Positions 7,394-35,534 of a stretch of 38,490 bases of DNA are shown piece by piece. The DNA comes from Bacteroidota bacterium (GTDB lineage Bacteria; Bacteroidota; Bacteroidia; Chitinophagales; UBA2359), in the NCBI GenBank assembly GCA_020631155.1, contig JAHDHV010000012.1, forward strand, positions 1-38,490, in the 5' to 3' direction. The notes below the pieces were generated by a model, which saw only the letters and a program-made list of their open reading frames with translations, did not search any database and was not told the origin of the DNA. The stretch's first letter is position 1. Each line of letters starts with the position of its first letter. The position numbers and the translations under genes were made by a program.

Positions 7394-8626
7394 ATGAATA
7401 AACAAGAGAAAAAAGCAGGTATTGGGCAGTTATTTTATACTTTTTTTTCTATTGGGTGTTTTGCGTTTGGTGGCTTTATGTCCCTTATTGCAGTGGTCAA
7501 TAGTGTGATTGTAGAGCAAAAAAAGTGGTTGAGTAGTGAAAAAATACTGGATGGTATCACCATTGCAAATCTACTGCCTGGTCCAATGGCGGTAAATGTG
7601 GTTAGTTATGTAGGGTATAAAATAGGTGGTTGGAAAGGAGCATTAGCCAGTTTTGTAGGAGTAATTTTACCTTCTTTTGTGTTAATTATTCTGTTTGCCA
7701 TCAACTATGAATATATCAGTCAATCTAGGTGGATTACAGAATTTTTGTTTGGAGTATATCCTGTATTAGCAGCCATCATTTTACACACTTTTGTTAAATT
7801 ATCTAAGAAAATTGTACGACAACAAATTCAGTGGGGGTTAATTTTAGTACCAGCCACTATTTTATTAATAGCTCCTATTTCCTTTCATTTAAGCATTATT
7901 TTCATGTTGATGATAGCTTATGGGATATTGGGAGGCTATTTATATACAGGAGAAGTAACTCAAAAAATTAATACTCAACAACTATTGAAAAGTGGAAAGT
8001 ATTTGTTGATTTTCTTTGCTTTTATATTATTCTTAGCAGGCATTTCATTGACAAATCCATCTTCAATAAATTTAAAGTTATTTTCCTCCTTTGGTAGTTT
8101 AAGTGTAATGTTATTTGGTGGTGGATATGTATTTATTCCAATGTTAGAAGACTTGGTTGTTCACCAAAATCATTGGGTTAGTCAAAAAGAGTTTATTGAT
8201 AGTATTGCCATTGGACAAGTTACACCTGGCCCAATAGTAATTACAGTTTCTTATATTGGCTATAAAGCAGGTGGTTTAATTGGAGCAATATTGTCTACCA
8301 TTGCCATTTTCGGAATACCTGCTACTTTGATGATACAGGTAGGAAATATTTTTCACCTTATTGCTGCCAATGAGAAATATCAATCAGTTATCAAATATTT
8401 GCGTTTTTGCGGAATTGGCTTAATCCTCTATGCAGGTATTTTTTTAATTCTAAAAAATTATCAAATATTACCTGATCACTACACATTACGTACTGTTATT
8501 AGTATAATTCTATTGGGCATTAGCTTTTTAGCACTGCGAAAATGGAATACCAATATATTTCTACTCATCCTTTTAGGTGGAGTGGCACAAATTATTTTTT
8601 ATACAATTATTTTAGCAACAAGATGA
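7394..8626 (+). CDS. chrA: CHR-family (ChrA-like) ion transporter
   Basis: Inner-membrane transporter of the CHR superfamily, in the long form with two homologous CHR halves. Each half shows the family core. The first has FGGFMSLIAVV followed by TIANLLPGPMAVNVVSYVGYKIGGWKGAL. The second has FGGGYVFIPMLEDLVV followed by SIAIGQVTPGPIVITVSYIGYKAGGLIGA. About ten to twelve hydrophobic segments are visible across 410 residues. Characterised members export chromate, and others are linked to sulfate or oxyanion transport. The frame extends to a TTG at 7376, but the ATG at 7394 is the more natural start. Its stop codon overlaps the start of a sulfotransferase gene (ATGA at 8623-8626), which suggests a functional link to sulfur metabolism and not only to metal resistance. 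No chrB-type regulator is present. Confidence 0.9.
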   Translation: MNKQEKKAGIGQLFYTFFSIGCFAFGGFMSLIAVVNSVIVEQKKWLSSEKILDGITIANLLPGPMAVNVVSYVGYKIGGWKGALASFVGVILPSFVLIILFAINYEYISQSRWITEFLFGVYPVLAAIILHTFVKLSKKIVRQQIQWGLILVPATILLIAPISFHLSIIFMLMIAYGILGGYLYTGEVTQKINTQQLLKSGKYLLIFFAFILFLAGISLTNPSSINLKLFSSFGSLSVMLFGGGYVFIPMLEDLVVHQNHWVSQKEFIDSIAIGQVTPGPIVITVSYIGYKAGGLIGAILSTIAIFGIPATLMIQVGNIFHLIAANEKYQSVIKYLRFCGIGLILYAGIFLILKNYQILPDHYTLRTVISIILLGISFLALRKWNTNIFLLILLGGVAQIIFYTIILATR

Positions 8627-9627
8627 AAAGAATTTTTATAGTTGGCACACAACGTAGTGGTTCTAATCTACTACGGATGATGTTGAATAGTCATTCTGAA
8701 CTGTTAGCTCCACACCCGCCTAATGTTCTAAAGCACTTTGTGCCTTTAGAACATATTTATGAACAAAATCCACAACTAGGACAACAAGCCTTGTTTGAAG
8801 ATATTTTACAATTAGTTAAATACAATCCTATTGACTGGGAAAATATTTCTTTTGATGTAGAAGATATTATAGGAAAGCATAAAGTTAATAATGTATTTGA
8901 ATACTTTTTGTACTTAATGGATGCTTATGCTAAACAAGAAGACTGTAATGGATGGGTTTGTAAAAGTACTCATAATTTTATTTATATGGAGGAATTGTTG
9001 AAAGCCGATAAAGGTGTATTCTTTATACATTTATATCGTGATCCTCGTGATGTAACACTCTCTTTTATGAAAGCAGATGTAGGTAATAAACATCCTTATA
9101 GTATTGCCAAAGAATGGTCTGATACACAAGACCACTGTATTCAAACACTTCAAAGCATCCATCCAGATAACTTTTTTACCATTCAATATGAGCAATTAAT
9201 AGAAGAACCACAAGTAATAATGGCGGAATTGTGTAATAAAGTAGGACTTACCTTTGAACCCCAAATGATGGAATTTTATAAATCAAAGAGTGCAAAAGAT
9301 TGTTCTAAAGCAGGTAAACGCTGGGAAAACTTGAAAAATCCTGTTATGTCTAACAATTACAAGAAATATAAAAAAGGATTATCAACAAAGCAAATAAAAA
9401 TGATTGAATATGTTGCTCAAGCTGCCATGAAACATTTAGGTTATGAATTAGACAACTATTTAAATGGATATAGAATAGACCAGAGAGAAATTGAAACTTA
9501 TCAAAATGAGAATAGATTTTTAATAAAAGAAAAAAATCGAAAGGGAGGAAAACAGAAAGAGTTTTTAGCTCAATTAAAGTCTAATTTAGAGTTAAAAGCT
9601 AAGATTTTACAGGAAAAACTAGCCTAA
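8623..9627 (+). CDS. PAPS-dependent sulfotransferase
   Basis: Cytosolic sulfotransferase of 334 residues that should transfer sulfate from PAPS to a hydroxyl group, probably of a sugar. The start at 8623 puts the PAPS-binding P-loop-like motif at the very N-terminus: MKRIFIVGTQRSGSNLLRMM. The 3'-phosphate-binding region is FFIHLYRDPRDVTLSFMKAD, with the conserved Arg and the downstream Ser. The frame is open further upstream inside chrA, but those residues overlap coding sequence and have no family match, so they are excluded. ATG and the chrA stop share the bases ATGA, a classic coupling arrangement. The C-terminal tail is Lys/Glu-rich and probably coiled. It is more distant in sequence from the three tandem sulfotransferases at 24.7-27.4 kb than those are from each other. 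Confidence 0.9.
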   Translation: MKRIFIVGTQRSGSNLLRMMLNSHSELLAPHPPNVLKHFVPLEHIYEQNPQLGQQALFEDILQLVKYNPIDWENISFDVEDIIGKHKVNNVFEYFLYLMDAYAKQEDCNGWVCKSTHNFIYMEELLKADKGVFFIHLYRDPRDVTLSFMKADVGNKHPYSIAKEWSDTQDHCIQTLQSIHPDNFFTIQYEQLIEEPQVIMAELCNKVGLTFEPQMMEFYKSKSAKDCSKAGKRWENLKNPVMSNNYKKYKKGLSTKQIKMIEYVAQAAMKHLGYELDNYLNGYRIDQREIETYQNENRFLIKEKNRKGGKQKEFLAQLKSNLELKAKILQEKLA

Positions 9628-9670
9628 ATATCAATACAAAATTCACAATACATTTTTTAACCCTAACTAA

Positions 9671-11122
9671 ATGAATATGTATTTAAAATTACTGGCTTTC
9701 TACATATCAATATTATTGGTAAATGTTGAATTATTTGCAGAATCAACAACATATTATCCAAAGAAAAGAAAGGAATACTTTATAAAAAAAAGTAAAGCCA
9801 AAACATTAAACATTCCTCAAGATAGTGTTCACTTAAACCCTTATGGAACTGCTCCACTAACTGCCTTAGTTCGTTTTCAAACTAAAAAGAAAGGATATAT
9901 CAAAATTCGAGTAGTTGGACAGGATGGAGAAGCCTCTGATATTACACATCAATTTGATAAGTATGGAACACGACATGAAGTTCCAATTTTAGGTTTGTAT
10001 CCTGATTATGAGAATCAAGTAGAATTAATGTTAGTAAACAAAAAAGGCAAAATAAAGGCTCGACAAACCCTTAACATAAAAACAGATACTTTACCTAAAG
10101 AGTATAACAAACCAGTAGAAATTATTATTAATAAACTTCCCAAAGAGGATAAAGGAGTATATTTAGATATTACATCACGAGTAGCATTTGACAAATTTGG
10201 TAAAATACGTTGGTATTATAAAGGTACTAAAAAAACTCAAGTTTTTAGAAAAACTCTAGATAGGAAAAATCTTTTGTGTTTAAGGGGATATCGCCCTGCT
10301 AAGGTAAGTATTATTTCTCTACTAGGTGAACTATTGGAATCATATCCCTATAAACTAGCTGGTAGACATGATGTAAGAGAATTACCTAGTGGAAATTTTA
10401 TAGTTGCAGCTAGTAAGAAGGGACCAGGTACAGAAGATATGGTTATAGAAATAGATAAAAATACTAAAAAAATTATTAACACATGGGACTTTACCACTAT
10501 TTTAGACACTACAAGAAAACATAATTATGGAGCTAAACAAAAGAATGACTGGCTACATATGAATTGTATTTTTTATGATGAAAAAGATGAAGCATTAATT
10601 ATTTCTGGAAGACATCAAAATGCAGTAGTCAAAATTAATATTAAAACTAATAAAATAAAATGGATATTAGGTCCCCACTATAATTGGAAACCAAAATTCC
10701 GAAAATATTTGCTTAAACCTACTAACTTTAAGCAAAGTGAATTTAATTGGGGGCAACACAGTCCTTTAGTCTTGCCTAATAGTAATATACTTTTATTTAA
10801 TAATGGTAATTTCAGAAGTATAGAAAAAGGAGTAACAAGTCCTACATACAGTAATGTTGTAGAGTACAAAATTGATGAGGAGAAAATGACTGTTGAATTA
10901 GTATGGCAATATGGAAAAGAAAGAGGTATATTTACGAAAGCCAGAGGAGATGTAGATTATCTTGAAGCTTCTGGTAATAGACTTATTTCTTTTATGTCAA
11001 CGTCTCCTACAAAGTCCACACCACTTATTATAGAAATAAATTCTAAAAATGAAGTACTTTTTGAGGCAATATTTGATCGGGATGTCAAACACTATCGAAT
11101 TGAAAAAGTAAACTTTTATTAG
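9671..11122 (+). CDS. Arylsulfate sulfotransferase (ASST)-like secreted protein
   Basis: Predicted exported protein of 483 residues with an N-terminal signal peptide (MNMYLKLLAFYISILLVNVELFAES). The body resembles PAPS-independent aryl-sulfate sulfotransferases, beta-propellers that move sulfate between phenolic compounds in the periplasm. Propeller-like repeats include GRHDVRELPSGNFIVAA (about 231-247), WLHMNCIFYDEKDEALIISGRHQNAVVKIN (about 294-323) and WGQHSPLVLPNSNILLFNNG (about 361-380). These carry His and Arg residues at places comparable to the catalytic His/Arg set known from E. coli AssT, but I cannot align them rigorously. It follows the cytosolic sulfotransferase by 43 bp. Either sulfate transfer outside the cell or a structural role without catalysis is possible. 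The gene is noticeably more AT-rich than the glycan genes at 16-23 kb. Confidence 0.78.
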   Translation: MNMYLKLLAFYISILLVNVELFAESTTYYPKKRKEYFIKKSKAKTLNIPQDSVHLNPYGTAPLTALVRFQTKKKGYIKIRVVGQDGEASDITHQFDKYGTRHEVPILGLYPDYENQVELMLVNKKGKIKARQTLNIKTDTLPKEYNKPVEIIINKLPKEDKGVYLDITSRVAFDKFGKIRWYYKGTKKTQVFRKTLDRKNLLCLRGYRPAKVSIISLLGELLESYPYKLAGRHDVRELPSGNFIVAASKKGPGTEDMVIEIDKNTKKIINTWDFTTILDTTRKHNYGAKQKNDWLHMNCIFYDEKDEALIISGRHQNAVVKINIKTNKIKWILGPHYNWKPKFRKYLLKPTNFKQSEFNWGQHSPLVLPNSNILLFNNGNFRSIEKGVTSPTYSNVVEYKIDEEKMTVELVWQYGKERGIFTKARGDVDYLEASGNRLISFMSTSPTKSTPLIIEINSKNEVLFEAIFDRDVKHYRIEKVNFY

Positions 11123-16247: not shown

Positions 16248-17180
16248 ATGAGTCATCAGGTTTCAATTGTTATACCTGTTTATAATGAGGAAGGAAATGT
16301 GGCAGAGCTGCATGAGGAAGTCAAGCAAGTTTGTGAGCAAAACAACTATACCTATGAGGTTATTTTTATAGATGATGGTTCTTCTGATAATACAGTGGCC
16401 ATTGCTCGACAATTATCTCCTGTTAAAGTAATTCAATTTAGGAAAAATTTTGGACAAACGGCCGCAATGGATGCGGGCATCAAGGCGGCGCAATATCCTT
16501 ATATTATTACAATGGATGGCGACCGACAAAACGATCCTACGGATATTCCCAAATTAATTGCTCATTTAGAAAAACACGACTACGATATTGTGTCGGGTTG
16601 GCGCAAGGATAGAAAGGATAATTTTTCTAAGCATTTTGTGTCTAGGGGGGCAAATTTTTTGAGAAAGATTTTGATTAATGATGGGATTCAGGATAGCGGT
16701 TGCTCGCTTAAAATTTACAAAAAAGAGTGTTTTGATACCTTGAATTTGTATGGCGAAATGCACCGTTTTATCCCTGCCTTATTGCGAATCAAAGGATTTA
16801 CCATTGGCGAAGTAGAGGTTAATCATAGGGCGCGAACCGCAGGCGTTACTAAATACAATTGGCAGCGCACCATCAAAGGCTTAATTGACATGGTATCGGT
16901 TTGGTTTTGGAACAAATTTGCTACTCGTCCTTTACATTTACTAGGCGGCGCAGGTTTTTTTCTCATCATATTAGGTGTGTTATCTGGCATAGCTACCCTT
17001 ATCAGTTTTTTTAGTGGTCAAGGCATGTCGGAGTCCGCTTGGCCAATGTTGACCATGTTTTTAACCCTTACAGGTATTCAGCTATTTGTGTCTGGATTAA
17101 TTGCGGACATTATGGTAAAAAGCTATTTTGAAAATACCGAAGACCGTCCCTATAGCATTAAAGAAATCATTGAAAATTAG
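16248..17180 (+). CDS. GT2 polyprenyl-phosphate glycosyltransferase, membrane-anchored
   Basis: Family 2 glycosyltransferase of the GtrB/ArnC/DPM1 type, 310 residues. The N-terminal GT-A domain (about 4-225) shows SIVIPVYNEEGNV, FIDDGSSDNT, the signature VIQFRKNFGQTAAMDAGI and the metal-binding MDGDRQNDP. Further on it has DSGCSLKIYKK and FIPALLRIKG. Two hydrophobic segments follow (about 228-255 and 263-290, HLLGGAGFFLIILGVLSG and LTMFLTLTGIQLFVSGLIADI), the usual membrane anchor of enzymes that load a sugar onto undecaprenyl phosphate. Its neighbour 70 bp downstream is a GT39-like membrane protein, the class that commonly uses such lipid-linked sugars as donors, so the two may act in sequence. 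Confidence 0.92.
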   Translation: MSHQVSIVIPVYNEEGNVAELHEEVKQVCEQNNYTYEVIFIDDGSSDNTVAIARQLSPVKVIQFRKNFGQTAAMDAGIKAAQYPYIITMDGDRQNDPTDIPKLIAHLEKHDYDIVSGWRKDRKDNFSKHFVSRGANFLRKILINDGIQDSGCSLKIYKKECFDTLNLYGEMHRFIPALLRIKGFTIGEVEVNHRARTAGVTKYNWQRTIKGLIDMVSVWFWNKFATRPLHLLGGAGFFLIILGVLSGIATLISFFSGQGMSESAWPMLTMFLTLTGIQLFVSGLIADIMVKSYFENTEDRPYSIKEIIEN

Positions 17181-17250: not shown

Positions 17251-20200
17251 GTGAAATCATTATTATCAAAATTTTCTTTTTGGTTAAAAGGCTTATTACC
17301 CTTTTTAGCCATTTTTATAATAATGTTGATATTGGGAAATCGAGCTATTCAAATTAATCGCTTTCTCATTATTCCATTTTTTATAGGTGGAACAGCACTA
17401 TACAGTTTATTATTTGTGTTAATAGAGCGATTTCGCAACTCCCCCAAGTTGATACATTTTCAAAAAGGTAGTTACTATCTTTTTTTATTGGTACTACTGC
17501 TCAATTTATTGCTAAACATTGACTTCAACCTTTTTATAGATAATACAGACAGTCCATTCTATCTTTTAGTAGAAGCATCAGAAAGGCTAAAAGTAGTTAA
17601 TTTGCAATTGATTCTCTTGTTGGGCTTTTTGACTAGTGTCAACATTGCTACTAATTACTTACCTGCTCAACTGCAAAATGTCCCTTCTCTTTCTTCTGAT
17701 ACTAACACCTCTAAATATTCTACCTACAAAAAATATTTTGCTTTCCTTTCCCTTATTTTACTAACAGCCATCGGTTTAGTCTTGCGCCTCTGGAATCTGG
17801 ACCTGCTCGACTCCTATCGAGATGAGGATCACCATTTATCTAGTGTGCGTTTACTGTTTGATACAGGGGCTTTTGAATATACGCGCGCCCAATTGGTGAC
17901 CTATACATCTGCCTTTTTCATTTGGTTAGGCGGTGGCGTTTCCTATTACGATTTTTTGTATTGGGGGCGTGTGCCAAGTGCCATTATGGGAGCTTTAACC
18001 ACCATTCCTATTTATTTATTGGGGCGAAAAATTTCTAAACCTGTGGCAATGGTGTCTGTTTTGCTGTGGGTAATTTCGCCTTGGGCTATTGGTATTGCGC
18101 GCAATATACGAGAACATAGTTACTATATTTTTATCATTTTGATATTGGTATTGTTGGCTTTGGCAATTATTGAAATGGTGCTTAATTTTGATAAAAAACA
18201 GTTGCCTAAGTTCATCGCTTACAACTTGATTATGGGTGGTGTATTGAGTTATGCCTTTTTTATTGATTGGCTCTCTACCCTCAAAGTAAGTGGTGTTATT
18301 TTAGCGGCGGTTGTTGGTGCTTATACTGTTAGTAATATTGATAAAGTAGGGAGACTGTTGTGGAAGCGGAAAATACTATTGGTTTTGGCGATTTTAGCAT
18401 TAATTGGTTTGTTATTACCCATTAGTGGAAGTAAATTTTTAAGTGCCGATAAAGTGATTAACTATAAGTGGGCAGATACTTTTTTTAATCCAAACACCAA
18501 TACCCCTATTCAGTGGTGGAAATCTATTACTCGCAACTCCTATTTAGTTTACTTCATAGTTTTAATTGGTTTATTTGTTTCCATTATCAAAAAACACCGA
18601 CATTATTCTATTTATTTACTCACTTTTTTATTTATTGTTTTAGGGTATCACTTCTTTTTTGATCGTTACTACTCCCCTCGATACATTTCTTTTGCTTTGC
18701 CTTTTTTCACTATTTGCACAGCAGCCACAGTCGTTTATTTATTTAATATAATAGGAACCATTGGGCGAAAATGGCTGCGTTATCCCTTGCAAATTGCTTT
18801 AGTGGCCATTTTATTCAATATTTTTTATTTGCCCAATACAAGTAAAGCCATTACTAACCCAACTATTTTGGATAAAAGTTTCACCTTAGAAACAACAGGC
18901 GAGGTACATAATGATAAAAAAGAACTACTCCGTTTTTTAGAAAAATTACCTAAACAAGAGCTAGAAAAACAGCACATCATTACCTCTATTTACGAAAATG
19001 TGCTACAACATGAATTATGTGTAGACTCTACTAAATTACACAAATACAAATATAAAAAAACAGGACGTTTTTCTAGTGTAGATAGTATTATGAATAAATA
19101 CGAAAGTGGTTTTTTGATACTGGACAGCCATCGCAATGGTATTTGGCGAAATGGTTATGCTAAAGAAAGAAATGCCATTTTCAATGTGGGTAATGCTCAA
19201 GTACAGTTGATGCAAAACCGCAAATTGTGTCAAATCTACCAATGGAAAACCGACCTATTGACTAGCAAAAAATACGATATACCTGCTACCATGCGCCATT
19301 TTACTGATTTCAGTATTGACATTGGCAAGCCTTTTACGCTTTCTTTTTGGGTAAATATTCCTAAAATAGCAGATGCCCCTTTGATGTTTATTGGAAATAT
19401 AGAAGATAATGGAATTGTGGTAGATGCAGTTACAGATCAAGACAATAACAGCAAATTGCGTTTTAATTATGGCTCAACAATGGAGGGTTATTTCTCACAA
19501 ACCCCTCCTTTAAATGATCAGGAATGGCATCATGTGGTACTACATCATTATGGTGGTGCTAAAGGCTCTCCATTTTTTATTTATGTGGATGGTCAAAAGC
19601 AAGAGCCTTTTGCACGTGTACCTGTCCATAAATCCAAAATGCTAGAAGTCATTTTATCACAAGCTTTTCAAGGAGATGTACAAGATATTCGCATTTATAA
19701 TAAAGCCATCAAAGCACAGCAAATTGCAGATATTTATGAAAAAAATACCGCAGATACCCTAGCTTTTAACTCTCTCACGCCAGTAGGCACCAGTGAAGCC
19801 CAAGAAAAAGTTGAATTGGTAGAAAAAGAAGCTAAAACTAACTCAAATGATAGCTTAACAACAGCAAAGGATGCTGAAAAAACGGTAGTTGATGATACTA
19901 AGGAGGAATTAGTAGCAGAAAATATAGAGGATAACACAAATAATAAAGATGATATTGTTGTTGAAAAAGAGGTGAATAATACCGCTTCTAATGAAAAGAA
20001 AGTCCCGATTTCTGAAGAGAAAAAAGCGGAATTGCTAAAAGCGGCGACTGCTTTTCCAACATCTCCAACTACAGATTCCACAGAAGTTACTCCCTCACTT
20101 TCAAAGGCTGAAACAGCAACAACTATTAAGGAAGAAAAGCCTGAAACAGCACAGCCTATTGAGGAAAAAATGGCTGAACCATTACCCAAAAAAGTTGAGA

Positions 20201-20625
20201 ACAATAAAACAACTCCTGAACCTGTAGTTGCATCATCAAGCCCAAAAGAAACTATTAAGGAATCTAAACCAAAAGAAACGTCTAAAAAAGAAACACCTAA
20301 AGAAAAAACCAAACTACAGAGGCATAAACTGTATGTAGTTCAAATAGGAGCCTTTAAAAATGTAGATCACAAGAAGTTAAAATCATTGACTAGCGTAGGG
20401 CAATTATATAGTGAAAAATCAGGCAGTTTAACAAAAATATTGGTAGGACCTTACACCAATTCATCAGCAGCACAACAAGCAGCTAATAAAATCAAAGCCA
20501 AAGGATTTGCCGCTAAACAAAGAAGCATTACCATTAAATACCCAACCATTACGACAAACATCAATACCCAAGAACTGAAAAAAATAAAGCGCGAACCTAA
20601 ATTATCTACTCTAAGAAAATTGTAG
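17251..20625 (+). CDS. GT39-like membrane protein fused to LamG-like and SPOR domains
   Basis: A 1124-residue fusion starting at GTG 17251. Residues 1 to about 530 contain a dozen or more hydrophobic segments and resemble GT39/PMT-type lipid-sugar-dependent transferases. The first large loop after RLWNLDLLDSYRDEDHH has the acidic DE pair typical of the family. About 540-680 is a soluble extracytoplasmic stretch. About 684-832 resembles a LamG/concanavalin domain (FTLSFWVNIP, LNDQEWHHVVLHHYGG, FFIYVDGQ, FQGDVQDIRIYNKAI). About 833-1020 is a disordered Lys/Glu/Pro/Thr-rich linker. About 1027-1092 is a SPOR domain (LYVVQIGAFKN, ILVGPYTNSSAAQQAANKIKAKG), known for binding peptidoglycan stripped of stem peptides. 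The architecture suggests a transferase tethered to the cell wall, perhaps at division sites. The frame is continuous, so it is not an assembly of adjacent genes. Confidence 0.88.
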   Translation: MKSLLSKFSFWLKGLLPFLAIFIIMLILGNRAIQINRFLIIPFFIGGTALYSLLFVLIERFRNSPKLIHFQKGSYYLFLLVLLLNLLLNIDFNLFIDNTDSPFYLLVEASERLKVVNLQLILLLGFLTSVNIATNYLPAQLQNVPSLSSDTNTSKYSTYKKYFAFLSLILLTAIGLVLRLWNLDLLDSYRDEDHHLSSVRLLFDTGAFEYTRAQLVTYTSAFFIWLGGGVSYYDFLYWGRVPSAIMGALTTIPIYLLGRKISKPVAMVSVLLWVISPWAIGIARNIREHSYYIFIILILVLLALAIIEMVLNFDKKQLPKFIAYNLIMGGVLSYAFFIDWLSTLKVSGVILAAVVGAYTVSNIDKVGRLLWKRKILLVLAILALIGLLLPISGSKFLSADKVINYKWADTFFNPNTNTPIQWWKSITRNSYLVYFIVLIGLFVSIIKKHRHYSIYLLTFLFIVLGYHFFFDRYYSPRYISFALPFFTICTAATVVYLFNIIGTIGRKWLRYPLQIALVAILFNIFYLPNTSKAITNPTILDKSFTLETTGEVHNDKKELLRFLEKLPKQELEKQHIITSIYENVLQHELCVDSTKLHKYKYKKTGRFSSVDSIMNKYESGFLILDSHRNGIWRNGYAKERNAIFNVGNAQVQLMQNRKLCQIYQWKTDLLTSKKYDIPATMRHFTDFSIDIGKPFTLSFWVNIPKIADAPLMFIGNIEDNGIVVDAVTDQDNNSKLRFNYGSTMEGYFSQTPPLNDQEWHHVVLHHYGGAKGSPFFIYVDGQKQEPFARVPVHKSKMLEVILSQAFQGDVQDIRIYNKAIKAQQIADIYEKNTADTLAFNSLTPVGTSEAQEKVELVEKEAKTNSNDSLTTAKDAEKTVVDDTKEELVAENIEDNTNNKDDIVVEKEVNNTASNEKKVPISEEKKAELLKAATAFPTSPTTDSTEVTPSLSKAETATTIKEEKPETAQPIEEKMAEPLPKKVENNKTTPEPVVASSSPKETIKESKPKETSKKETPKEKTKLQRHKLYVVQIGAFKNVDHKKLKSLTSVGQLYSEKSGSLTKILVGPYTNSSAAQQAANKIKAKGFAAKQRSITIKYPTITTNINTQELKKIKREPKLSTLRKL

Positions 20626-20633
20626 GTTAGAGG

Positions 20634-20734
20634 TAAGACACAAGATGTAAGATGTAAGACACAAGACACAAGATGTAAGATTTAAGACACAAGATGTAAG
20701 ATGCAAGTCTCATATCTCCCATCTCACATCTTAA
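20634..20734. repeat. Heptamer array with inverted tail
   Basis: Ten perfect-period 7-base units of the form YAAGAYN run from 20634 to 20703 (TAAGACA, CAAGATG, TAAGATG and so on). From 20707 the units turn into their complement (GTCTCAT, ATCTCCC, ATCTCAC, ATCTTAA). The last forward and the reverse units can pair as an imperfect hairpin. The array starts 9 bp after the GT39 stop and ends 12 bp before the GT4 start. Confidence 0.88.
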
Positions 20735-20745
20735 ATAAATCACCC

Positions 20746-21858
20746 ATGAACATACTTTTCCTAAATTACGAATTTCCACCACTAGGCGGCGGTGCCAGCC
20801 CAATTAGCTTTGAAATAGCCGAGCGATATGTACAGTTAGGCCATCAAGTGAGTGTGGTAACGATGGGCTTTAAAGACCTGCCTGATGTGGAAGTAGTGAG
20901 TGGAATTAAAGTATTTCGAGTGCCTTGTATTCGTGCAAAAAAAGAGATTTGTCATCCGCACGAAATGCTGACTTTTGTATTTAGTGCCATCCGATTTTTG
21001 CGCCGCCATTTGCAACAATACAACTACGATGTTTGTCATACACATTTTGCCATTCCTACAGGTTTAGTGGCTCAATGGGTCAAAAAACAGTACAGCATCA
21101 ACTACATCATCACCAGTCATGGCAGCGATATACCGGGCTACAACAACGACAGATTTCTATTTTTACACCATTTTACCAAGCCCATTTTAAATTATGTCCT
21201 CAAAAATTCCTCTGGCAATTTTTCAGGCTCACAATATCTAGCCAATTTGGCCAATACCAACGTTCAGCCCCCTATCCCCTATCAAGTAATTCGTGAAGGT
21301 TTTAAAAGTCATCTATTTGAACCTAGAGAAAAGCAAAAAATCATTCTATCCACAGGGCGGCTACTGCGGCGAAAGGGGTTTCAATATTTAATCAAAGCCG
21401 TTTCAGGGCAAGACATTGGTTATGAGGTGCATATTTGTGGAGATGGCCCAATGATGGAAGAATTAAAGGCTTTAGCACAAAACTCCAAAACCAAAATTGT
21501 TTTTCACGGATGGATTAGTAACAAAGGGGAAAAATACAAGGAATTGCTGGAGTCAGCAGCGATTTATTCGCTGGTTTCTGCTAAAGAAAACGCCAGTAAA
21601 TCCCTATTAGAAGCCATGAGTGCGGGCTGTGCAGTCATCACTTCCAATATAGCAGGCTGTCCCGAATCGGTCGGCGATGCTGGCATTACCCTTCCCCCAG
21701 AAGATGAAGATATTTTGCGAAAAACCTTGTATAATTTGGTGGTTAATGAGCATAAAATTGAGGAACTAGGACAAAAAGCACGACAACGAATTTTAGAGGT
21801 TTACAACTGGGATACCCTCATTAAACAATACGAAAAGGTGTTAATGGATATTCAATAA
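20746..21858 (+). CDS. GT4 family glycosyltransferase
   Basis: GT-B fold retaining glycosyltransferase of 370 residues. The N-terminal domain starts MNILFLNYEFPPLGGGASP with the glycine-rich acceptor loop. The C-terminal donor-binding domain has STGRLLRRKGFQYLIKAV, HICGDGPMMEELKAL and the family's acidic helix region ENASKSLLEAMSAGCAVI, where the E-x7-E pattern contacts the nucleotide sugar. The frame extends upstream to 20701, but those 15 codons are heptamer repeat sequence, so the ATG at 20746 is chosen. It transfers an unknown sugar in the cytosol, probably onto a lipid-linked glycan intermediate. Confidence 0.92.
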   Translation: MNILFLNYEFPPLGGGASPISFEIAERYVQLGHQVSVVTMGFKDLPDVEVVSGIKVFRVPCIRAKKEICHPHEMLTFVFSAIRFLRRHLQQYNYDVCHTHFAIPTGLVAQWVKKQYSINYIITSHGSDIPGYNNDRFLFLHHFTKPILNYVLKNSSGNFSGSQYLANLANTNVQPPIPYQVIREGFKSHLFEPREKQKIILSTGRLLRRKGFQYLIKAVSGQDIGYEVHICGDGPMMEELKALAQNSKTKIVFHGWISNKGEKYKELLESAAIYSLVSAKENASKSLLEAMSAGCAVITSNIAGCPESVGDAGITLPPEDEDILRKTLYNLVVNEHKIEELGQKARQRILEVYNWDTLIKQYEKVLMDIQ

Positions 21859-22094: not shown

Positions 22095-23051
22095 ATGCAA
22101 AAACGAATACTTATCACAGGTGCAGCAGGCTTTTTAGGCTCTCATTTATCCGATAGATTTATTGCAGAAGGCTATCATGTCATCGGTATGGATAATCTAT
22201 TAACAGGCAATTTGGCCAATATAGAACATCTATTTCCGCTTGAAAATTTTGAATTTTACCATCATGATGTGTCGAAATTTGTGCATGTTCCGGGGAAATT
22301 GGACTATATTCTACACTTTGCCTCTCCTGCCAGTCCCATTGATTACCTAAAAATGCCCATCCAAACCATGAAAGTTGGTTCATTGGGTACACATAATTTG
22401 TTAGGTTTGGCAAAGGCTAAAAAAGCCCGAATTTTGGTGGCATCTACCTCTGAGGTTTACGGCGATCCACAGGTGCACCCACAAAAAGAAGAATATTGGG
22501 GCAATGTAAATCCTATCGGGCCGCGTGGCGTGTATGATGAAGCCAAGCGTTTTCAAGAAGCCATCACAATGGCCTATCACACTTTTCACGGTTTAGAGAC
22601 GCGAATTGTGCGAATTTTTAACACCTACGGACCTAGAATGAGGCTCAATGATGGTCGTGCTTTGCCTACTTTCTTTCGACAAGCCATTGAAGGTGAGGAC
22701 ATTACCGTTTTTGGCGATGGCTCACAAACGCGCTCATTTTGTTATGTCAGTGATTTGGTAGAAGGCATTTATCGTTTGTTGTTGAGTGATTATGCACTGC
22801 CTGTTAATATTGGAAATCCGCAAGAAATCAGCATCAAAGAGTTTGCCGAAGAAATCATCGAATTTACAGGCACCAGTTCCAAAATTGTCTACAAACCCCT
22901 ACCCAAAGACGACCCTCAACAACGACAGCCAGACATTACCAAAGCTCAAAATATTTTAGGTTGGCAACCAAGGGTTTCCCGTAAAGAGGGCTTTATCAAA
23001 ACCTACGCTTACTTTAAAGAAATATTGGAGAAAAATAAAACATTGGTTTAG
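22095..23051 (+). CDS. uxs: UDP-glucuronate decarboxylase (UDP-xylose synthase)
   Basis: Extended short-chain dehydrogenase of 318 residues, predicted to oxidise and decarboxylate UDP-glucuronate to UDP-xylose with recycled NAD. Diagnostic signs are [10 protein letters not shown] (nucleotide binding, about 9-18), [51 protein letters not shown] with the catalytic Y-D-E-A-K, and [11 protein letters not shown]. The [14 protein letters not shown] segment separates this family from UDP-glucose epimerases and RmlB. Its substrate can come from the UDP-glucose dehydrogenase encoded at 30879-32237 on the other side of the replication origin. It is flanked by repeat-rich spacers and probably has its own promoter, which I could not identify. 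Confidence 0.93.
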
Positions 23052-24693: not shown

Positions 24694-25596
24694 TTGAATC
24701 CATCTGCCATCTCCGACTTATCCAACACTTCTTTTCAATTACATTTTACAGGTATTGGTGCCGAAAAAGCAGGTACAACCAAAATAGCCGATTTGCTTGC
24801 TGCTCATCCTGATATTTGTTTATCAGAACCCAAAGAGGTACATTTTTTTAATGAAAAATTGGGCTATAATCACCAATTTGTAAACAAAAATTATGGTCAA
24901 TCTTTGATGTGGTATGAAAAACATTTTGCCCATGCAAAAAAAGGCCAATTAGTTGGAGAATTTTCAACGGGCTATTTGCCTGATCTTGCAGCTCCTAAAA
25001 ATATTCATGCACTTTTCCCCAATATCAAATTGATTGTATGCCTGAGAAACCCTATTAAGCGCGCCTACTCGCAGTACATTATGTATCGTTTTTATTTTAA
25101 AGCAGAAAATCGAAGTTTTAGCGAAACCATACGGCAAGAGCCTGAATACATCGAAAAAGGGCTATATGCAAAGCAAGTAAAACGATATTTGCAATATTTC
25201 AAACAAGAACAACTACACATTATTGTATTAGACGATTTTAAAAAAAATCCAACTACAACAATTCAACGACTCTATCACTTTTTAGGTGTAAATGATGCCT
25301 TTATTCCGCCCAATTTAACTGAAAAATCTAATGCTGCAAAAGCCATTAAATCGCCTTTTATCTCCAAATTAATGGGCTGGTTTTCTGCGGTAATGGTTGC
25401 TTTAAAATTGTCTGCCGTTTTGGGTTATTTAAAAGACTTAGGGCTTAAAAAATGGGTCATGAAACTAAATACTTCTAAAGTAGAACACCCTCCTATGACA
25501 GCAGAAGATAAAGCCTTTTTGCAACTTCAATTTTTAGATGATATACAAGAATTGGAACAACTGATTAACAAAGACTTATCAGCTTGGAAAAAATGA
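24694..25596 (+). CDS. Sulfotransferase, tandem copy 1
   Basis: PAPS-dependent sulfotransferase of 300 residues in the carbohydrate sulfotransferase group. The 5'-phosphosulfate-binding motif is GIGAEKAGTTKIADLL (20-35). The 3'-phosphate-binding segment is KLIVCLRNPIKRAYSQYIMYRF with the usual Arg and Ser. The only start giving the full domain is TTG at 24694; no ATG lies before the PAPS motif. It follows the GT4 gene by 27 bp and overlaps the next gene by four bases (ATGA). Long runs such as SEPKEVH and KLMGWFSAVMVAL are shared with the next gene, indicating tandem duplication. It probably sulfates a sugar of the locus product in the cytosol. Confidence 0.9.
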   Translation: MNPSAISDLSNTSFQLHFTGIGAEKAGTTKIADLLAAHPDICLSEPKEVHFFNEKLGYNHQFVNKNYGQSLMWYEKHFAHAKKGQLVGEFSTGYLPDLAAPKNIHALFPNIKLIVCLRNPIKRAYSQYIMYRFYFKAENRSFSETIRQEPEYIEKGLYAKQVKRYLQYFKQEQLHIIVLDDFKKNPTTTIQRLYHFLGVNDAFIPPNLTEKSNAAKAIKSPFISKLMGWFSAVMVALKLSAVLGYLKDLGLKKWVMKLNTSKVEHPPMTAEDKAFLQLQFLDDIQELEQLINKDLSAWKK

Positions 25597-26474
25597 GTAA
25601 AAATCCCTCTTTACATATTGATTTTCTAGGTATTGGCGCACCAAAAGCTGGTACGACAAAAATAGCGGATTTTCTAGCAGCACATCCACAGATTTGTTTA
25701 TCAGAACCTAAGGAAGTACACTATTTTAACGAATTTGTTTCCTACATTCATCAAGAAAAAAATCCAAATTATGGGAAGCCTTTAAATTGGTATGCCAAGC
25801 ATTTTGCCCATGCAAAAAAAGGGCAAAAAGTAGGGGAGTTTTGTACAGGTTATTTATACGATAAAAAAGCTCTTTATCAAATAAAAAATACATTTCCTGC
25901 TGTAAAACTAATTGCTTGTATTCGTCAACCTGTGGATCGTGCCTATTCTCAATATATTATGCACAGCTTTTACTTTAAAAAGGAAGTACGTACTTTTGAG
26001 GAAGTTATTCAAGCTGAAAAAGAATACATTGGTAAAAGTTTATTTTATAAGCAGCTAAAGCCTTACTTTGAGCATTTTGATAAAAAGCAAATTTTGGTGA
26101 TCCAATTAAAGGATATTCAGAAGAATCCAAAGGCAGTTGTAAAATGCTTGTATCAATTTTTAGAAGTAGACACTTCTTTTGTGCCTCCTGATTTAATGGA
26201 AAAATCCAATGCTGCAAAAGCGATAAAATTTCCCTTTGTTTCTAAGTTGATGGGTTGGTTTTCTGCGGTGATGGTTGCCTTACGACTGTCATTTGTACTT
26301 CAATGGTTAAAAGAAAAAGGCTTGCGAAAGTGGGTACTAAAATGGAATAGTCAACCGATGGATTACCCAGCAATGAAAACGGAAACAAGGGCTTATTTGA
26401 ATGAAGTGTTTAAGGAAGACATTGAACAATTGGAAGATTTACTAAATATTGATTTATCACATTGGAAATCTTAA
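25593..26474 (+). CDS. Sulfotransferase, tandem copy 2
   Basis: PAPS-dependent sulfotransferase of 293 residues and close paralogue of the preceding gene. PAPS-binding motif GIGAPKAGTTKIADFL (13-28) and 3'-phosphate segment KLIACIRQPVDRAYSQYIMHSF are present. Shared stretches with copy 1 include SEPKEVH-FNE and the C-terminal KSNAAKAIK region followed by SKLMGWFSAVMVAL. The frame continues upstream to TTG 25584, but the ATG at 25593, overlapping the previous stop as ATGA, is the natural coupled start. The two copies differ enough between those runs to suggest they now act on different positions or acceptors, which is inference. Confidence 0.9.
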   Translation: MSKNPSLHIDFLGIGAPKAGTTKIADFLAAHPQICLSEPKEVHYFNEFVSYIHQEKNPNYGKPLNWYAKHFAHAKKGQKVGEFCTGYLYDKKALYQIKNTFPAVKLIACIRQPVDRAYSQYIMHSFYFKKEVRTFEEVIQAEKEYIGKSLFYKQLKPYFEHFDKKQILVIQLKDIQKNPKAVVKCLYQFLEVDTSFVPPDLMEKSNAAKAIKFPFVSKLMGWFSAVMVALRLSFVLQWLKEKGLRKWVLKWNSQPMDYPAMKTETRAYLNEVFKEDIEQLEDLLNIDLSHWKS

Positions 26475-26476
26475 AT

Positions 26477-27379
26477 ATGGATGTTAAAAACCCCAATTTT
26501 CGGGTAGATTTTATAGGTATTGGCGCAGCAAAGTCAGGGACTACATGGCTCGCGAATAACTTAAAACAACACCCTCAAATTTGTTTTTCTCCTACCAAAG
26601 AAATCACCTATTTTAATGAATATCTGGTGCGAATGCCTGATGTTAAAAATCCACATCATAGCAAACCATTAAGCTGGTATCATCATTTTTTTGAGGCTAA
26701 AAAAGCAGGGCAAATCACTGGAGAAATTTCTGTTCAATATTTAATGATGCCGGGTACTGCTCAAAAAATTTACAATTACAATCCAAATGTGAAAATATTA
26801 GTCATTTTGCGCGACCCACCACAACAGGTTTTTTCTTGGTATTTGTACAGTATTCAAAGAGGAGTTGTTAATTATGCCACCTTAGAAGAAGCAATTAAAG
26901 AACGTCCAGACCTATTTGCTAATACCTTTTACTATCAGCAGTTAAAAATTTATTTTGACTTATTTCCAAAAGAAAACATTAAAGTTTTATTTTTTAAATC
27001 TATAAAAGAAAATAATAAAGCTTTTTTTAAAGAAGTATTAGATTTTTTAGGAGTAGATGAATTTTACCCTGAAAGCCTCACAAAAAAATCAAACGAAACA
27101 AAAACACTCAGATTTAAATCACTAACAAGGCTCATTCAAGGAACTCGTCATTTTATCACAAAACACAATTTGGAATTTATCATTCCTCTCCTTCGTTCAA
27201 TAGGAATTGTACAACTAGGTACCTTTATTCGAGATAAGATGAATGTGAAAAAAATGAAGGAAAAACCAAAACTGTCTTCAGAGTTAGAAGCAAAATTAAG
27301 GGCTTTTTATCAGGAGGATATTGAACAATTAGAAAGCTTATTAAATATTGATTTAAATCACTGGAAATCAAAAAAATAA
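26477..27379 (+). CDS. Sulfotransferase, tandem copy 3
   Basis: PAPS-dependent sulfotransferase of 300 residues, more divergent than the first two. The PAPS motif is GIGAAKSGTTWLANNL (13-28), the classic K-x-G-T-T-W form, and the 3'-phosphate segment is KILVILRDPPQQVFSWYLYSIQRG. The C-terminal DIEQLESLLNIDLNHWKS matches the ending of copy 2 (DIEQLEDLLNIDLSHWKS) almost residue for residue, so all three share ancestry. The upstream in-frame TTG at 26462 overlaps the previous gene. The ATG at 26477, two bases after its stop, is chosen. The flippase gene follows after 6 bp. Confidence 0.9.
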   Translation: MDVKNPNFRVDFIGIGAAKSGTTWLANNLKQHPQICFSPTKEITYFNEYLVRMPDVKNPHHSKPLSWYHHFFEAKKAGQITGEISVQYLMMPGTAQKIYNYNPNVKILVILRDPPQQVFSWYLYSIQRGVVNYATLEEAIKERPDLFANTFYYQQLKIYFDLFPKENIKVLFFKSIKENNKAFFKEVLDFLGVDEFYPESLTKKSNETKTLRFKSLTRLIQGTRHFITKHNLEFIIPLLRSIGIVQLGTFIRDKMNVKKMKEKPKLSSELEAKLRAFYQEDIEQLESLLNIDLNHWKSKK

Positions 27380-27385
27380 TACACT

Positions 27386-28633
27386 TTGTCTAAACTAAAA
27401 GATAAACTAATAAAAGAAACTTCTTGGAGCTTTGCATTAAAGGCTTGTACCTTTCCATTATTTTTTATTCTAAACATATTCTTGGCAAGAACATTAGGGG
27501 TTGATAAAATGGGGGAATGGTCTTTTTTCTTTTCCATTTTTACTACCCTTTTGCTGTTGTCCAATTTTGGAATCAAGGCTTCCATGAAATTTATTGCTCA
27601 ACACAATCATACAGATAATTTGATACAAGTCCTAAACGATGCAACAAAATTAAGGGTTATTTGTATCAGTATATTTTCTGCTATCTTGTTGATTTTCAGT
27701 GATCAATTGGCAATTTTAATTAATCGAGTAGAATTTACAAATTTATTTCGCTGGGCAGCTTTGTTATTACTTGTAACTGGTTTTGTAGAGTATTTAAAGC
27801 ATGTTTTTACTGGTTTACACCGAATTAAATACACTTTTATTGTTAACGTATCTGAATTAACTCTTAAAGTAGTATTTGTTATATTATTATTAACATGGAG
27901 TTTAGATTTGAAAAACATCATTTGGGCCTTTACCTTAGCAGTGACAATTAGCGTTTTGGCTGGTTTTTATTTATTATACAAAAATTTTTATACTAAAGAA
28001 AATACATCTACACAAAAATATTTTAAAGAAATTTTTGATTATAGTATTCCGTTATTTTTGGTAAGCATTGGTTTTTCTATTGCGACAGAAGTGGATACTA
28101 TCATGTTAGGTTTATTGTCAACAGATGCTGAAGTTGGCGTTTATGCCATTGCCAAACAGATAGTAGTGAAGTTACCTCATTTTAGTTACGCAGTTGCAAT
28201 GGGTACAATGCCTGTATTTGCAAAAATAACAATGGATAATCAATTGAAATTAAAGCGATTATTTTTTAGATTACTAGGCGTTAATGCATTGGTTTTTATT
28301 CCTGTTGTATTGGGAATTTTGTTTTTAGGACCTTATTTAATTCCTCTGATTTATGGAGCCGAATATGCTGCTGCTGTACTTCCTTTACAAATTTTGACTG
28401 TTTATTTGTTGGTTTTTACATTTACTGTTTTCTTTAATCAACTCTTAGATTATCAAGGACTTGCAAAGATAAGAGCCATTAATATTTTTATTTCTACGAC
28501 ATTAAATATTGTGTTAAATTATTACTTGATTCCTAAATATGGGGCAGTTGGGGCTGCTATTTCTACGTCAATTTCTTATTTTCCATATTTGATTTTAAAT
28601 GCTTGGGAAGCTCGAAAACTCTTTCCATATTAA
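27386..28633 (+). CDS. wzx: Wzx-type polysaccharide flippase
   Basis: Integral membrane protein of 415 residues with about twelve hydrophobic segments, of the polysaccharide transporter (RfbX/Wzx, MOP superfamily) group that flips undecaprenyl-linked repeat units across the inner membrane. Family-like features are the N-terminal NIFLARTLGVDKMGEWSFFFSIF (about 31-53), EVDTIMLGLLSTDAEVGVYAIA in the middle, and the C-terminal LNYYLIPKYGAVGAAISTSISYF. The start is TTG at 27386, 6 bp after the last sulfotransferase; the first residues SKLKDKLIKETSW are typical of flippase N-termini. It is the last gene of the GT4-sulfotransferase operon and lies immediately left of the replication origin. No Wzy polymerase was recognised nearby. 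Confidence 0.9.
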   Translation: MSKLKDKLIKETSWSFALKACTFPLFFILNIFLARTLGVDKMGEWSFFFSIFTTLLLLSNFGIKASMKFIAQHNHTDNLIQVLNDATKLRVICISIFSAILLIFSDQLAILINRVEFTNLFRWAALLLLVTGFVEYLKHVFTGLHRIKYTFIVNVSELTLKVVFVILLLTWSLDLKNIIWAFTLAVTISVLAGFYLLYKNFYTKENTSTQKYFKEIFDYSIPLFLVSIGFSIATEVDTIMLGLLSTDAEVGVYAIAKQIVVKLPHFSYAVAMGTMPVFAKITMDNQLKLKRLFFRLLGVNALVFIPVVLGILFLGPYLIPLIYGAEYAAAVLPLQILTVYLLVFTFTVFFNQLLDYQGLAKIRAINIFISTTLNIVLNYYLIPKYGAVGAAISTSISYFPYLILNAWEARKLFPY

Positions 28634-29832: not shown

Positions 29833-30729
29833 ATGGAAAAAAATGATCATCAAATAGCTCAAGTTAGCAATGCATTAATTGAATCTCGACATGAACTAAC
29901 AACACTACAAAAAAAGATCATGTTATTTTTGATTTCGAGGGTCTCTAAAAGTGATAAACCCTTTCAACAATATAGTCTGAAGATTTCGGAGTTTGCAGAT
30001 ACCTCAAATGTTGTAAGTCCTCAGTTGTACAGCCGAATTAAACAGTCTACTGCGGAATTGCTGATGAAAGTATATGAAATACAGGAAACAGACGGTATTT
30101 TGCAGGTTGGTATGTTATCAAGTGCAAAGTATTTAGATGGTAAGGGGACAGTTCAAATTCGCTTTGATCCTGCTTTGATGCCTTATATTTTGGCTTTGAA
30201 GGAGCGTTTTACTTTTGTTCCGCTTCGGCATGTTTTGGGTTTTCGCTCTATACATTCTATCCGAGTATATGAAATGTTGCGTCAATTTAGAGGACCTGGG
30301 TATTTTGTCATTAGTATTTATGATTTAAAATATCGCTTATGCGTTGAAAATAAATATGTAAAATACGCTGCCTTTAAAAAATATGTGCTTTTACAAGCGC
30401 AAAAAGAATTAAAAGGTACAGATTGTGAGTTTACATTCGAGGAATTTAAAAAAGGGAGGCGTGTAGATCGGATTAAATTTTCGATTGTATCTCCTAAAAA
30501 AATTGAGTTAAGTAAAAAGGAAACAAAACTGTTGAATAAATTGGTGAAAGAATATCAATTAACATTGCCACAAGCGCGAAAAATCATTTTACACCTCTCT
30601 CCTACCATCATTCAACAAACTTTATATGAAATTCAAACGGCGAAAGTAAACAATGTCATCAAAACAAATTTGGGGGCTTTTACAGTAGGTGTTTTTAAGA
30701 AAAAATTTGAATGGTTGTATGAAAATTGA
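29833..30729 (+). CDS. Rep_3 family replication initiator
   Basis: Plasmid-type replication initiation protein of 298 residues (Rep_3/RepB superfamily), with two winged-helix domains that bind iterons as a monomer and the operator as a dimer. The N-terminal signature VSNALIESRHELTTLQKKIMLFLISRV (12-38) is the usual opening of the family. Later parts include VQIRFDPALMPYILALKERFTFVPLRHVLGFRSIHSIRVYEMLRQF (about 112-157), the core of the first winged helix and its junction. The second domain follows to about 230, and a basic C-terminal extension runs to 298. The upstream iterons, DnaA boxes and operator support the call strongly. The gene is intact. It lies between a flippase and ugd, so it separates two parts of the glycan gene set. 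No ParA/ParB partition genes are visible here. Confidence 0.93.
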   Translation: MEKNDHQIAQVSNALIESRHELTTLQKKIMLFLISRVSKSDKPFQQYSLKISEFADTSNVVSPQLYSRIKQSTAELLMKVYEIQETDGILQVGMLSSAKYLDGKGTVQIRFDPALMPYILALKERFTFVPLRHVLGFRSIHSIRVYEMLRQFRGPGYFVISIYDLKYRLCVENKYVKYAAFKKYVLLQAQKELKGTDCEFTFEEFKKGRRVDRIKFSIVSPKKIELSKKETKLLNKLVKEYQLTLPQARKIILHLSPTIIQQTLYEIQTAKVNNVIKTNLGAFTVGVFKKKFEWLYEN

Positions 30730-32459: not shown

Positions 32460-32714
32460 ATGTATACTATGACAGTAACTGTAAATAAATGGGGTAATAA
32501 TTTAGGTATTCAATTTCCTAAAGTAATTGCTGAAGCTGCCGATTTGTCCGCAGGTAAAAAGTTATTAATTACTATAGATGGAACAGGGAAACTTATTTTA
32601 CAAGTAGAAGAAGACAATATAACCCTTGATGATTTGATTAAAGGAGTGACACCAGAAAATAGACATGATGTTTTTATTAATAAAACAGTAGGTAAAGAAG
32701 GATGGAACTATTGA
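32460..32714 (+). CDS. mazE: MazE-like (AbrB-fold) antitoxin
   Basis: Small protein of 84 residues. The first half, VTVNKWGNNLGIQFPKVIAEAADLSAGKKLLITI (about 6-39), is a swapped-hairpin AbrB/MazE DNA-binding domain; the W-G-N-x-L-x-x-x-x-P pattern is diagnostic. The second half (about 45-84), with DNITLDDLIKGVTPENRHDVF, is the flexible tail that wraps and neutralises the MazF toxin. The ATG at 32460 is used; a second ATG at 32469 is also possible. The reading frame overlaps the toxin start by 13 bases, a coupling that keeps antitoxin ahead of toxin. A perfect palindrome upstream is the probable binding site for autorepression. Confidence 0.9.
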   Translation: MYTMTVTVNKWGNNLGIQFPKVIAEAADLSAGKKLLITIDGTGKLILQVEEDNITLDDLIKGVTPENRHDVFINKTVGKEGWNY

Positions 32715-33043
32715 CAGAAGCTCCCAAACGAGGAGACATTATTTGGTTGGATTTTGACCCCAAAAAAGGACGAGAACAAAAAGGCCATCGCCCTGCCTTG
32801 GTCTTATCACATTTCAAACATAATAAAGCGTTTCAATTAGCCATTGTAACACCTATTACAAGACAAGTAAAAGGCTTTGGTATAGAAGTTCCCTTACCAA
32901 ACAACTGTTCATTGGAAGGTGTCATTTTAAGTAATCAGGTACACACAATTGACTGGAAAGTGCGTAAGGCTGCCTATGCAGGACAGGTAGACAGTACAAC
33001 TTTGGATGCTGTTATAAGGCGCATCAATATTTTGATTCAGTAA
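32702..33043 (+). CDS. mazF: MazF/PemK-family toxin
   Basis: Endoribonuclease toxin of 113 residues, cutting mRNA at short single-stranded motifs when free of antitoxin. Family marks are RGDIIWLDFDPKKGREQKGHRPALVLSH (about 10-37), with the R-G-D-I/V start and the G-H/R-R-P-A-L-V-L core, then AIVTPITR, and GVILSNQVHTIDWKVRKAAYAG near the end. The gene is complete and starts inside mazE. The next gene converges on it from the minus strand with 13 bp between the stops. Location within about 2 kb of the rep gene suggests an addiction role for the replicon. Confidence 0.92.
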   Translation: MELLTEAPKRGDIIWLDFDPKKGREQKGHRPALVLSHFKHNKAFQLAIVTPITRQVKGFGIEVPLPNNCSLEGVILSNQVHTIDWKVRKAAYAGQVDSTTLDAVIRRINILIQ

Positions 33044-35499: not shown

Positions 35500-35534
35500 G
35501 TCTTATATCTTATGTCTTAAATCTTGCATCTCAT
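35500..35534. repeat. Heptamer array at the end of the TMTC-like gene
   Basis: Five units in the complement orientation: GTCTTAT, ATCTTAT, GTCTTAA, ATCTTGC, ATCTCAT, running into the stop codon of the minus-strand gene (35531-35533). On the minus strand it reads as AGAYNNN like the arrays at 20634 and 32203. Confidence 0.8.

Follow-up and report, generated by a model that had tools for sequence, protein, structure and literature searches.

A predicted GT-C glycosyltransferase with a LamG-like domain and, in one genome, an added SPOR tail

The locus and its reading frame

The window (the whole stretch of DNA that was analyzed, 38,490 nucleotides) comes from a MAG assembly of 666 contigs that is 92% complete with 3.5% contamination. 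The gene of interest lies among genes for glycan synthesis, all on the plus strand:

16248..17180 (+), GT2 glycosyltransferase of the polyprenyl-phosphate-sugar synthase type (ArnC/PgfS-like), the likely donor-making partner
17251..20625 (+), the complete gene, encoding 1124 aa from a GTG start and uninterrupted to the stop
17278..17706 (+), four N-terminal TM segments preceding the GT-C core (aa 10-152), found in relatives too
17707..19254 (+), predicted GT-C glycosyltransferase core plus a small soluble alpha/beta domain (aa 153-668), from structural matches
17818..17835 (+), RDEDHH motif (aa 190-195), candidate catalytic or metal-binding acidic loop, invariant in 9 of 9 sequences
19306..19728 (+), jelly-roll domain of LamG-like or concanavalin-like type (aa 686-826), from Pfam, in 8 of 9 members, Z about 13
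19753..20319 (+), E/K/T-rich low-complexity linker, predicted disordered (aa 835-1023), pLDDT below 50, this genome only
20326..20511 (+), SPOR domain (aa 1026-1087), from Pfam, whose Q1031 and A1034 occupy glycan-binding positions
20701..21858 (+), GT4 glycosyltransferase, conserved as the following gene
22095..23051 (+), extended-SDR nucleotide-sugar enzyme (Pfam Epimerase / GDP_Man_Dehyd), conserved neighbor
24694..27379 (+), three sulfotransferases in tandem
27386..28633 (+), Wzx/MATE-type polysaccharide flippase

The initial annotation described a single 1124-codon frame, and there is indeed no break between the GTG and the stop at 17251-20625 (+). In a codon log-likelihood test trained on 13 other genes of the window, codon usage preferred frame 0 in 28 of 28 full 40-codon blocks, including those at the LamG, linker and SPOR junctions. 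In the linker, both alternative frames are rich in stops and conceal no signal peptide. No hydrophobic stretch was found in the tail (the linker maximum was KD 0.41 over 15 aa), and its SPOR part carries no export signal or signal peptide of its own. Synteny on both flanks, unbroken coding potential and the absence of a signal peptide from the tail make an assembly join unlikely. With the gene syntenic on both sides, a chimeric contig at the tail is likewise improbable.

Distribution of the protein and its tail

Among 40 genomes near the source, we found eight long matches, each falling within residues ~6-833 with 34-42% identity; the frames that contain them are 827-870 aa long. Of the 20 genomes of one Chitinophagales family, 10 encode the combined GT-C and LamG protein; these comprise the source genome itself, one genome with a fragment and eight with comparable relatives. 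A sample of 294 other genomes from across the class contained no copy. A single-sequence scan of genome contigs found no relative, and an alignment-based scan returned eight loci, all coinciding with the relatives already known. In the alignment, the linker and SPOR domain (residues 835-1124) occur solely in the window's protein, and all eight comparable relatives, which belong to other genera, end shortly after LamG. As judged from these comparisons, the architecture is two-layered: a family-restricted GT-C and LamG enzyme, with a SPOR tail apparently added in one genome. With a tail added in one genome to an enzyme confined to one family, the link that the initial annotation drew between sugar attachment and the cell wall or septum cannot be claimed as a general one.

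Membrane part and GT-C core

Hydropathy analysis placed all hydrophobic segments within residues 10-527, giving 13 segments for the protein's own sequence and 15 for the alignment average. We modeled the body with AF2 from a nine-row alignment. The pLDDT was mostly 65-93 up to residue 832, while the tail fell below 50 in the full-length model. Structural matches begin at residue ~153, after the four N-terminal TM segments. When residues 153-668 of the model were compared by VIA-align, the match to OST/STT3 had a Z score of 23.2 (rmsd 4.5, 427 aligned), followed by Pmt4 (21.5), ArnT with undecaprenyl phosphate (19.6) and PglB (19.6). Overall, STT3, Pmt4, ArnT, PglB and ALG12 matched at Z of about 19-23 across 340-460 residues, and EmbB and AftD were also among the matches.

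On the strength of this model, the core is a GT-C enzyme whose predicted fold is generic among STT3, Pmt4 and ArnT. The proposal of a multi-pass sugar transferase is therefore borne out by the 13 or 15 hydrophobic segments, the predicted fold and the conserved motifs. The more specific GT39 label is not: no PMT or GT39 Pfam model matched the window protein or its eight relatives at E ≤ 1. The best NCBIfam match of glycosyltransferase type was TIGR03663 Agl23, at 24.3 bits against a cut-off of 126.

The RDEDHH motif sits directly past the first core TM segment. In GT-C enzymes, the loop that follows the first core TM carries acidic residues for catalysis or metal binding, and by analogy RDEDHH would be the catalytic or metal-binding loop. 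A second motif, REH at 287-289, is also invariant in 9 of 9 aligned sequences. The protein thus resembles ArnT (GT83), PMT (GT39) and STT3-PglB in its predicted fold, in the acidic motif after the first core TM and in having a soluble external domain beyond its last TM. It differs from them in its lack of a significant Pfam sequence match, its four extra N-terminal TMs and its appended LamG and SPOR domains.

Topology and the LamG-like domain

The catalytic loop of a GT-C enzyme is expected to be external. Between the RDEDHH loop and the soluble C-terminal part, we counted eight segments in the protein's own sequence and 10 in the alignment average. Because the number is even by either count, LamG and SPOR should lie on the same side as the loop. 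The AF2 model also aligns with STT3 and ArnT through the external soluble domains of both. Hydropathy parity and fold homology together support a periplasmic C-terminus, rather than the cytoplasmic one that would have spoken against the original idea.

The concanavalin-like domain was confirmed by a Laminin_G_3 Pfam match at residues 686-826 (52.5 bits, curated cut-off 27.6), and Pfam finds LamG in 8 of 9 family members. Residues 677-838 of the AF2 model match jelly-roll lectin-like domains at Z ~13. Foldseek matches of the jelly roll included lectin-like domains of clostridial neurotoxin complexes, which we attribute to the common fold only. The arabinosyltransferase EmbC likewise has a lectin-like module for carbohydrate binding on the periplasmic side, C-terminal to its GT-C core (PMC3044687), and EmbB and AftD, found among the structural matches, share this arrangement. 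These enzymes come from other species, use another module family and have no SPOR domain.

Linker and SPOR domain

A long charged linker had been noted, and residues of about 835-1023 are indeed rich in E, K and T. The SPOR domain that follows was recovered by Pfam at residues 1026-1087 with 30.3 bits (curated cut-off 21), and a predicted SPOR fold agrees with this part of the initial annotation. We folded the domain separately from the body, together with 34 SPOR relatives, so the placement of tail and body relative to each other is outside the model. The pLDDT was 92-96 throughout the domain, and the elements run beta-alpha-beta-beta-alpha-beta. The top Foldseek match was the SPOR domain of CwlC, and a profile built from the 35 SPOR segments picked out CwlC, FtsN and DedD among solved structures. 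A weak Pfam match to Acyl_transf_1 in the linker and NCBIfam matches to DedD/TafC were put down to low-complexity or single-domain matching.

Q1031 and A1034 coincide with Q270 and A273 of RlpA, which contact glycan (PMC6895207). The basic patch (RlpA R302/R309/R311), aligned by eye, is only partly kept, with K at R309 and L at R311. SPOR domains bind bare glycan strands, known SPOR proteins function in division or morphogenesis, and most combine a small SPOR domain with disordered regions and an N-terminal TM anchor (PMC6895207). By analogy with this general behavior, and given the conserved key Gln, the domain would be expected to bind peptidoglycan (PMC6895207). The same two considerations suggest that it may localize to the septum (PMC6895207). 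FtsN, DedD, DamX and RlpA likewise terminate in a SPOR domain that is attached through a flexible low-complexity linker and lies outside the cytoplasmic membrane (PMC6895207). However, they are single-TM or lipoprotein division proteins, whereas the protein that carries the SPOR domain here is a multi-pass enzyme encoded in a surface-glycan locus.

SPOR domains were found in 19 of 20 family genomes, with up to 15 matches per genome. About 65 other distinct SPOR frames in the order all have 0-1 apparent TM segments, and the window's frame alone is multi-pass; this sample consists of the family set plus 20 loci elsewhere in the order, mostly picked for length and taken from the best matches listed, and it includes some frames that end at a contig edge and few short ones. 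We found no paper in the open-licence literature that links SPOR with a mannosyltransferase or oligosaccharyltransferase, and the fusion seen here is not an established architecture, though GT-C and SPOR fusions may occur elsewhere.

The family also shows an expansion of secreted-looking multi-SPOR proteins, often with tandem domains; L002, L005, L017, L019, L073, L080, L081, L083 and others have two or three SPOR domains each. Since SPOR domains are numerous and often tandem in this family, not all of them need be septal.

Conserved gene neighborhood

The GT2 gene is directly upstream in six of the eight relatives, and the contig of one further relative starts there. GT4 is directly downstream in five of eight. 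Beyond it, the order in the relatives is commonly an SDR sugar-nucleotide enzyme, a second GT4 and sulfotransferases, with a flippase in two loci; the gene order of the window is the same. By inspection, the product of 22095..23051 appears to be UDP-glucuronate decarboxylase-like. No separate SPOR gene was found close to the relatives' genes. The pairing of a polyprenyl-phosphate-sugar synthase with an adjoining GT-C enzyme and a flippase is also seen in Gtr-type three-component periplasmic glycosylation (PMC11127046). The window locus differs in that no dedicated donor flippase was identified, and the LamG and SPOR modules are absent from the Gtr description.

Four cytosolic-type sulfotransferases and an arylsulfotransferase (ASST, 252 bits) are encoded at 8542-11122 and 24694-27379 (+) of the window. 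From this gene content, the product of the locus is likely to be heavily sulfated.

Proposed mechanism and alternatives

We favor, with a probability of roughly 0.6, a periplasmic GT-C glycosyltransferase that depends on a polyprenyl-phosphate sugar and has secondarily acquired a tether to denuded peptidoglycan, probably at the septum. The upstream GT2 would put a sugar onto undecaprenyl phosphate, the loaded donor would be flipped, and the GT-C enzyme would then transfer the sugar in the periplasm. The acceptor may be a surface glycan or protein produced by the surrounding locus; we infer both donor and acceptor. The jelly roll probably grips the acceptor, the role proposed for the lectin-like module at the C-terminus of EmbC. 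The disordered 190-residue arm and SPOR domain, added at the periplasmic C-terminus in this species alone, would tether the enzyme to peptidoglycan strands without stem peptides, concentrating it at the wall and probably at the septum. The arm should be long enough to reach the wall. Since the relatives manage without a tail, it is not needed for the core reaction, and it more likely changes where the enzyme acts. A stronger version, in which SPOR targets a surface-glycan glycosyltransferase to the division septum and so couples glycan modification spatially to division, is a tentative proposal that we lean against.

Because the tail occurs in one genome, and that an incomplete MAG, near-neutral acquisition is a serious rival. 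The tail would then be a recent, functionally minor gain from the lineage's SPOR repertoire, with a SPOR domain that folds yet gives little localization or binds another glycan, and the enzyme would work as it does in its tail-less relatives. Its absence from all eight comparable relatives and the abundance of SPOR domains, often in tandem, in the family's secreted proteins fit this account. However, frame, codon usage, predicted fold and binding-site Gln are all intact, and we consider it somewhat doubtful. Distinctly less probable is that SPOR positions peptidoglycan, or a peptidoglycan-bound polymer, as the acceptor, with the glycan being synthesized on the wall or linked to it. The binding of bare glycan strands by SPOR (PMC6895207) and the ability of GT-C enzymes such as EmbA/B and AftD, found among the structural matches, to make wall polymers speak for it, but SPOR is missing from relatives that share the operon, which means that the core reaction can proceed without it, and the locus contains nothing dedicated to peptidoglycan attachment. 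Finally, the fusion of two adjacent genes by an indel or misassembly, as might be suspected of a tail unique to this MAG, is very improbable given the syntenic flanks, the best coding score for frame 0 throughout, the stop-rich alternative linker frames, the missing signal peptides and the lack of a separate SPOR gene near any relative.

To our knowledge, SPOR domains have been described almost solely in division and wall-remodeling proteins. A SPOR domain on a multi-pass GT-C enzyme would physically link surface-glycan assembly to peptidoglycan, and would be a natural case of moving a membrane glycosyltransferase by domain addition, for which the tail-less relatives offer a ready comparison. 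The weight of the case is limited by a tail known from one genome.

Other features of the window

A GDP-mannose 4,6-dehydratase gene at 1529-3856 (+) is interrupted by a long insert, in frame, that bears a LAGLIDADG_3 domain. The insert ends in VHN before SPLRGE and looks like an intein; FNHE, the upstream extein residues, are followed by an unusual Thr. Two more multi-pass proteins are encoded near the glycan locus at 35531-37276 (-) and 33057-35426 (-); one has a hydrophobic N-terminus and TPR repeats and appears TMTC-like by inspection, and the other is YfhO (202.8 bits). Within the glycan locus, 29833-30729 (+) encodes a Rep3 plasmid-type replication initiator (112 bits), and the contig may be plasmid-borne or contain an integrated plasmid. 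A PemK/MazF-like toxin gene (85.6 bits) lies at 32702-33043 (+).
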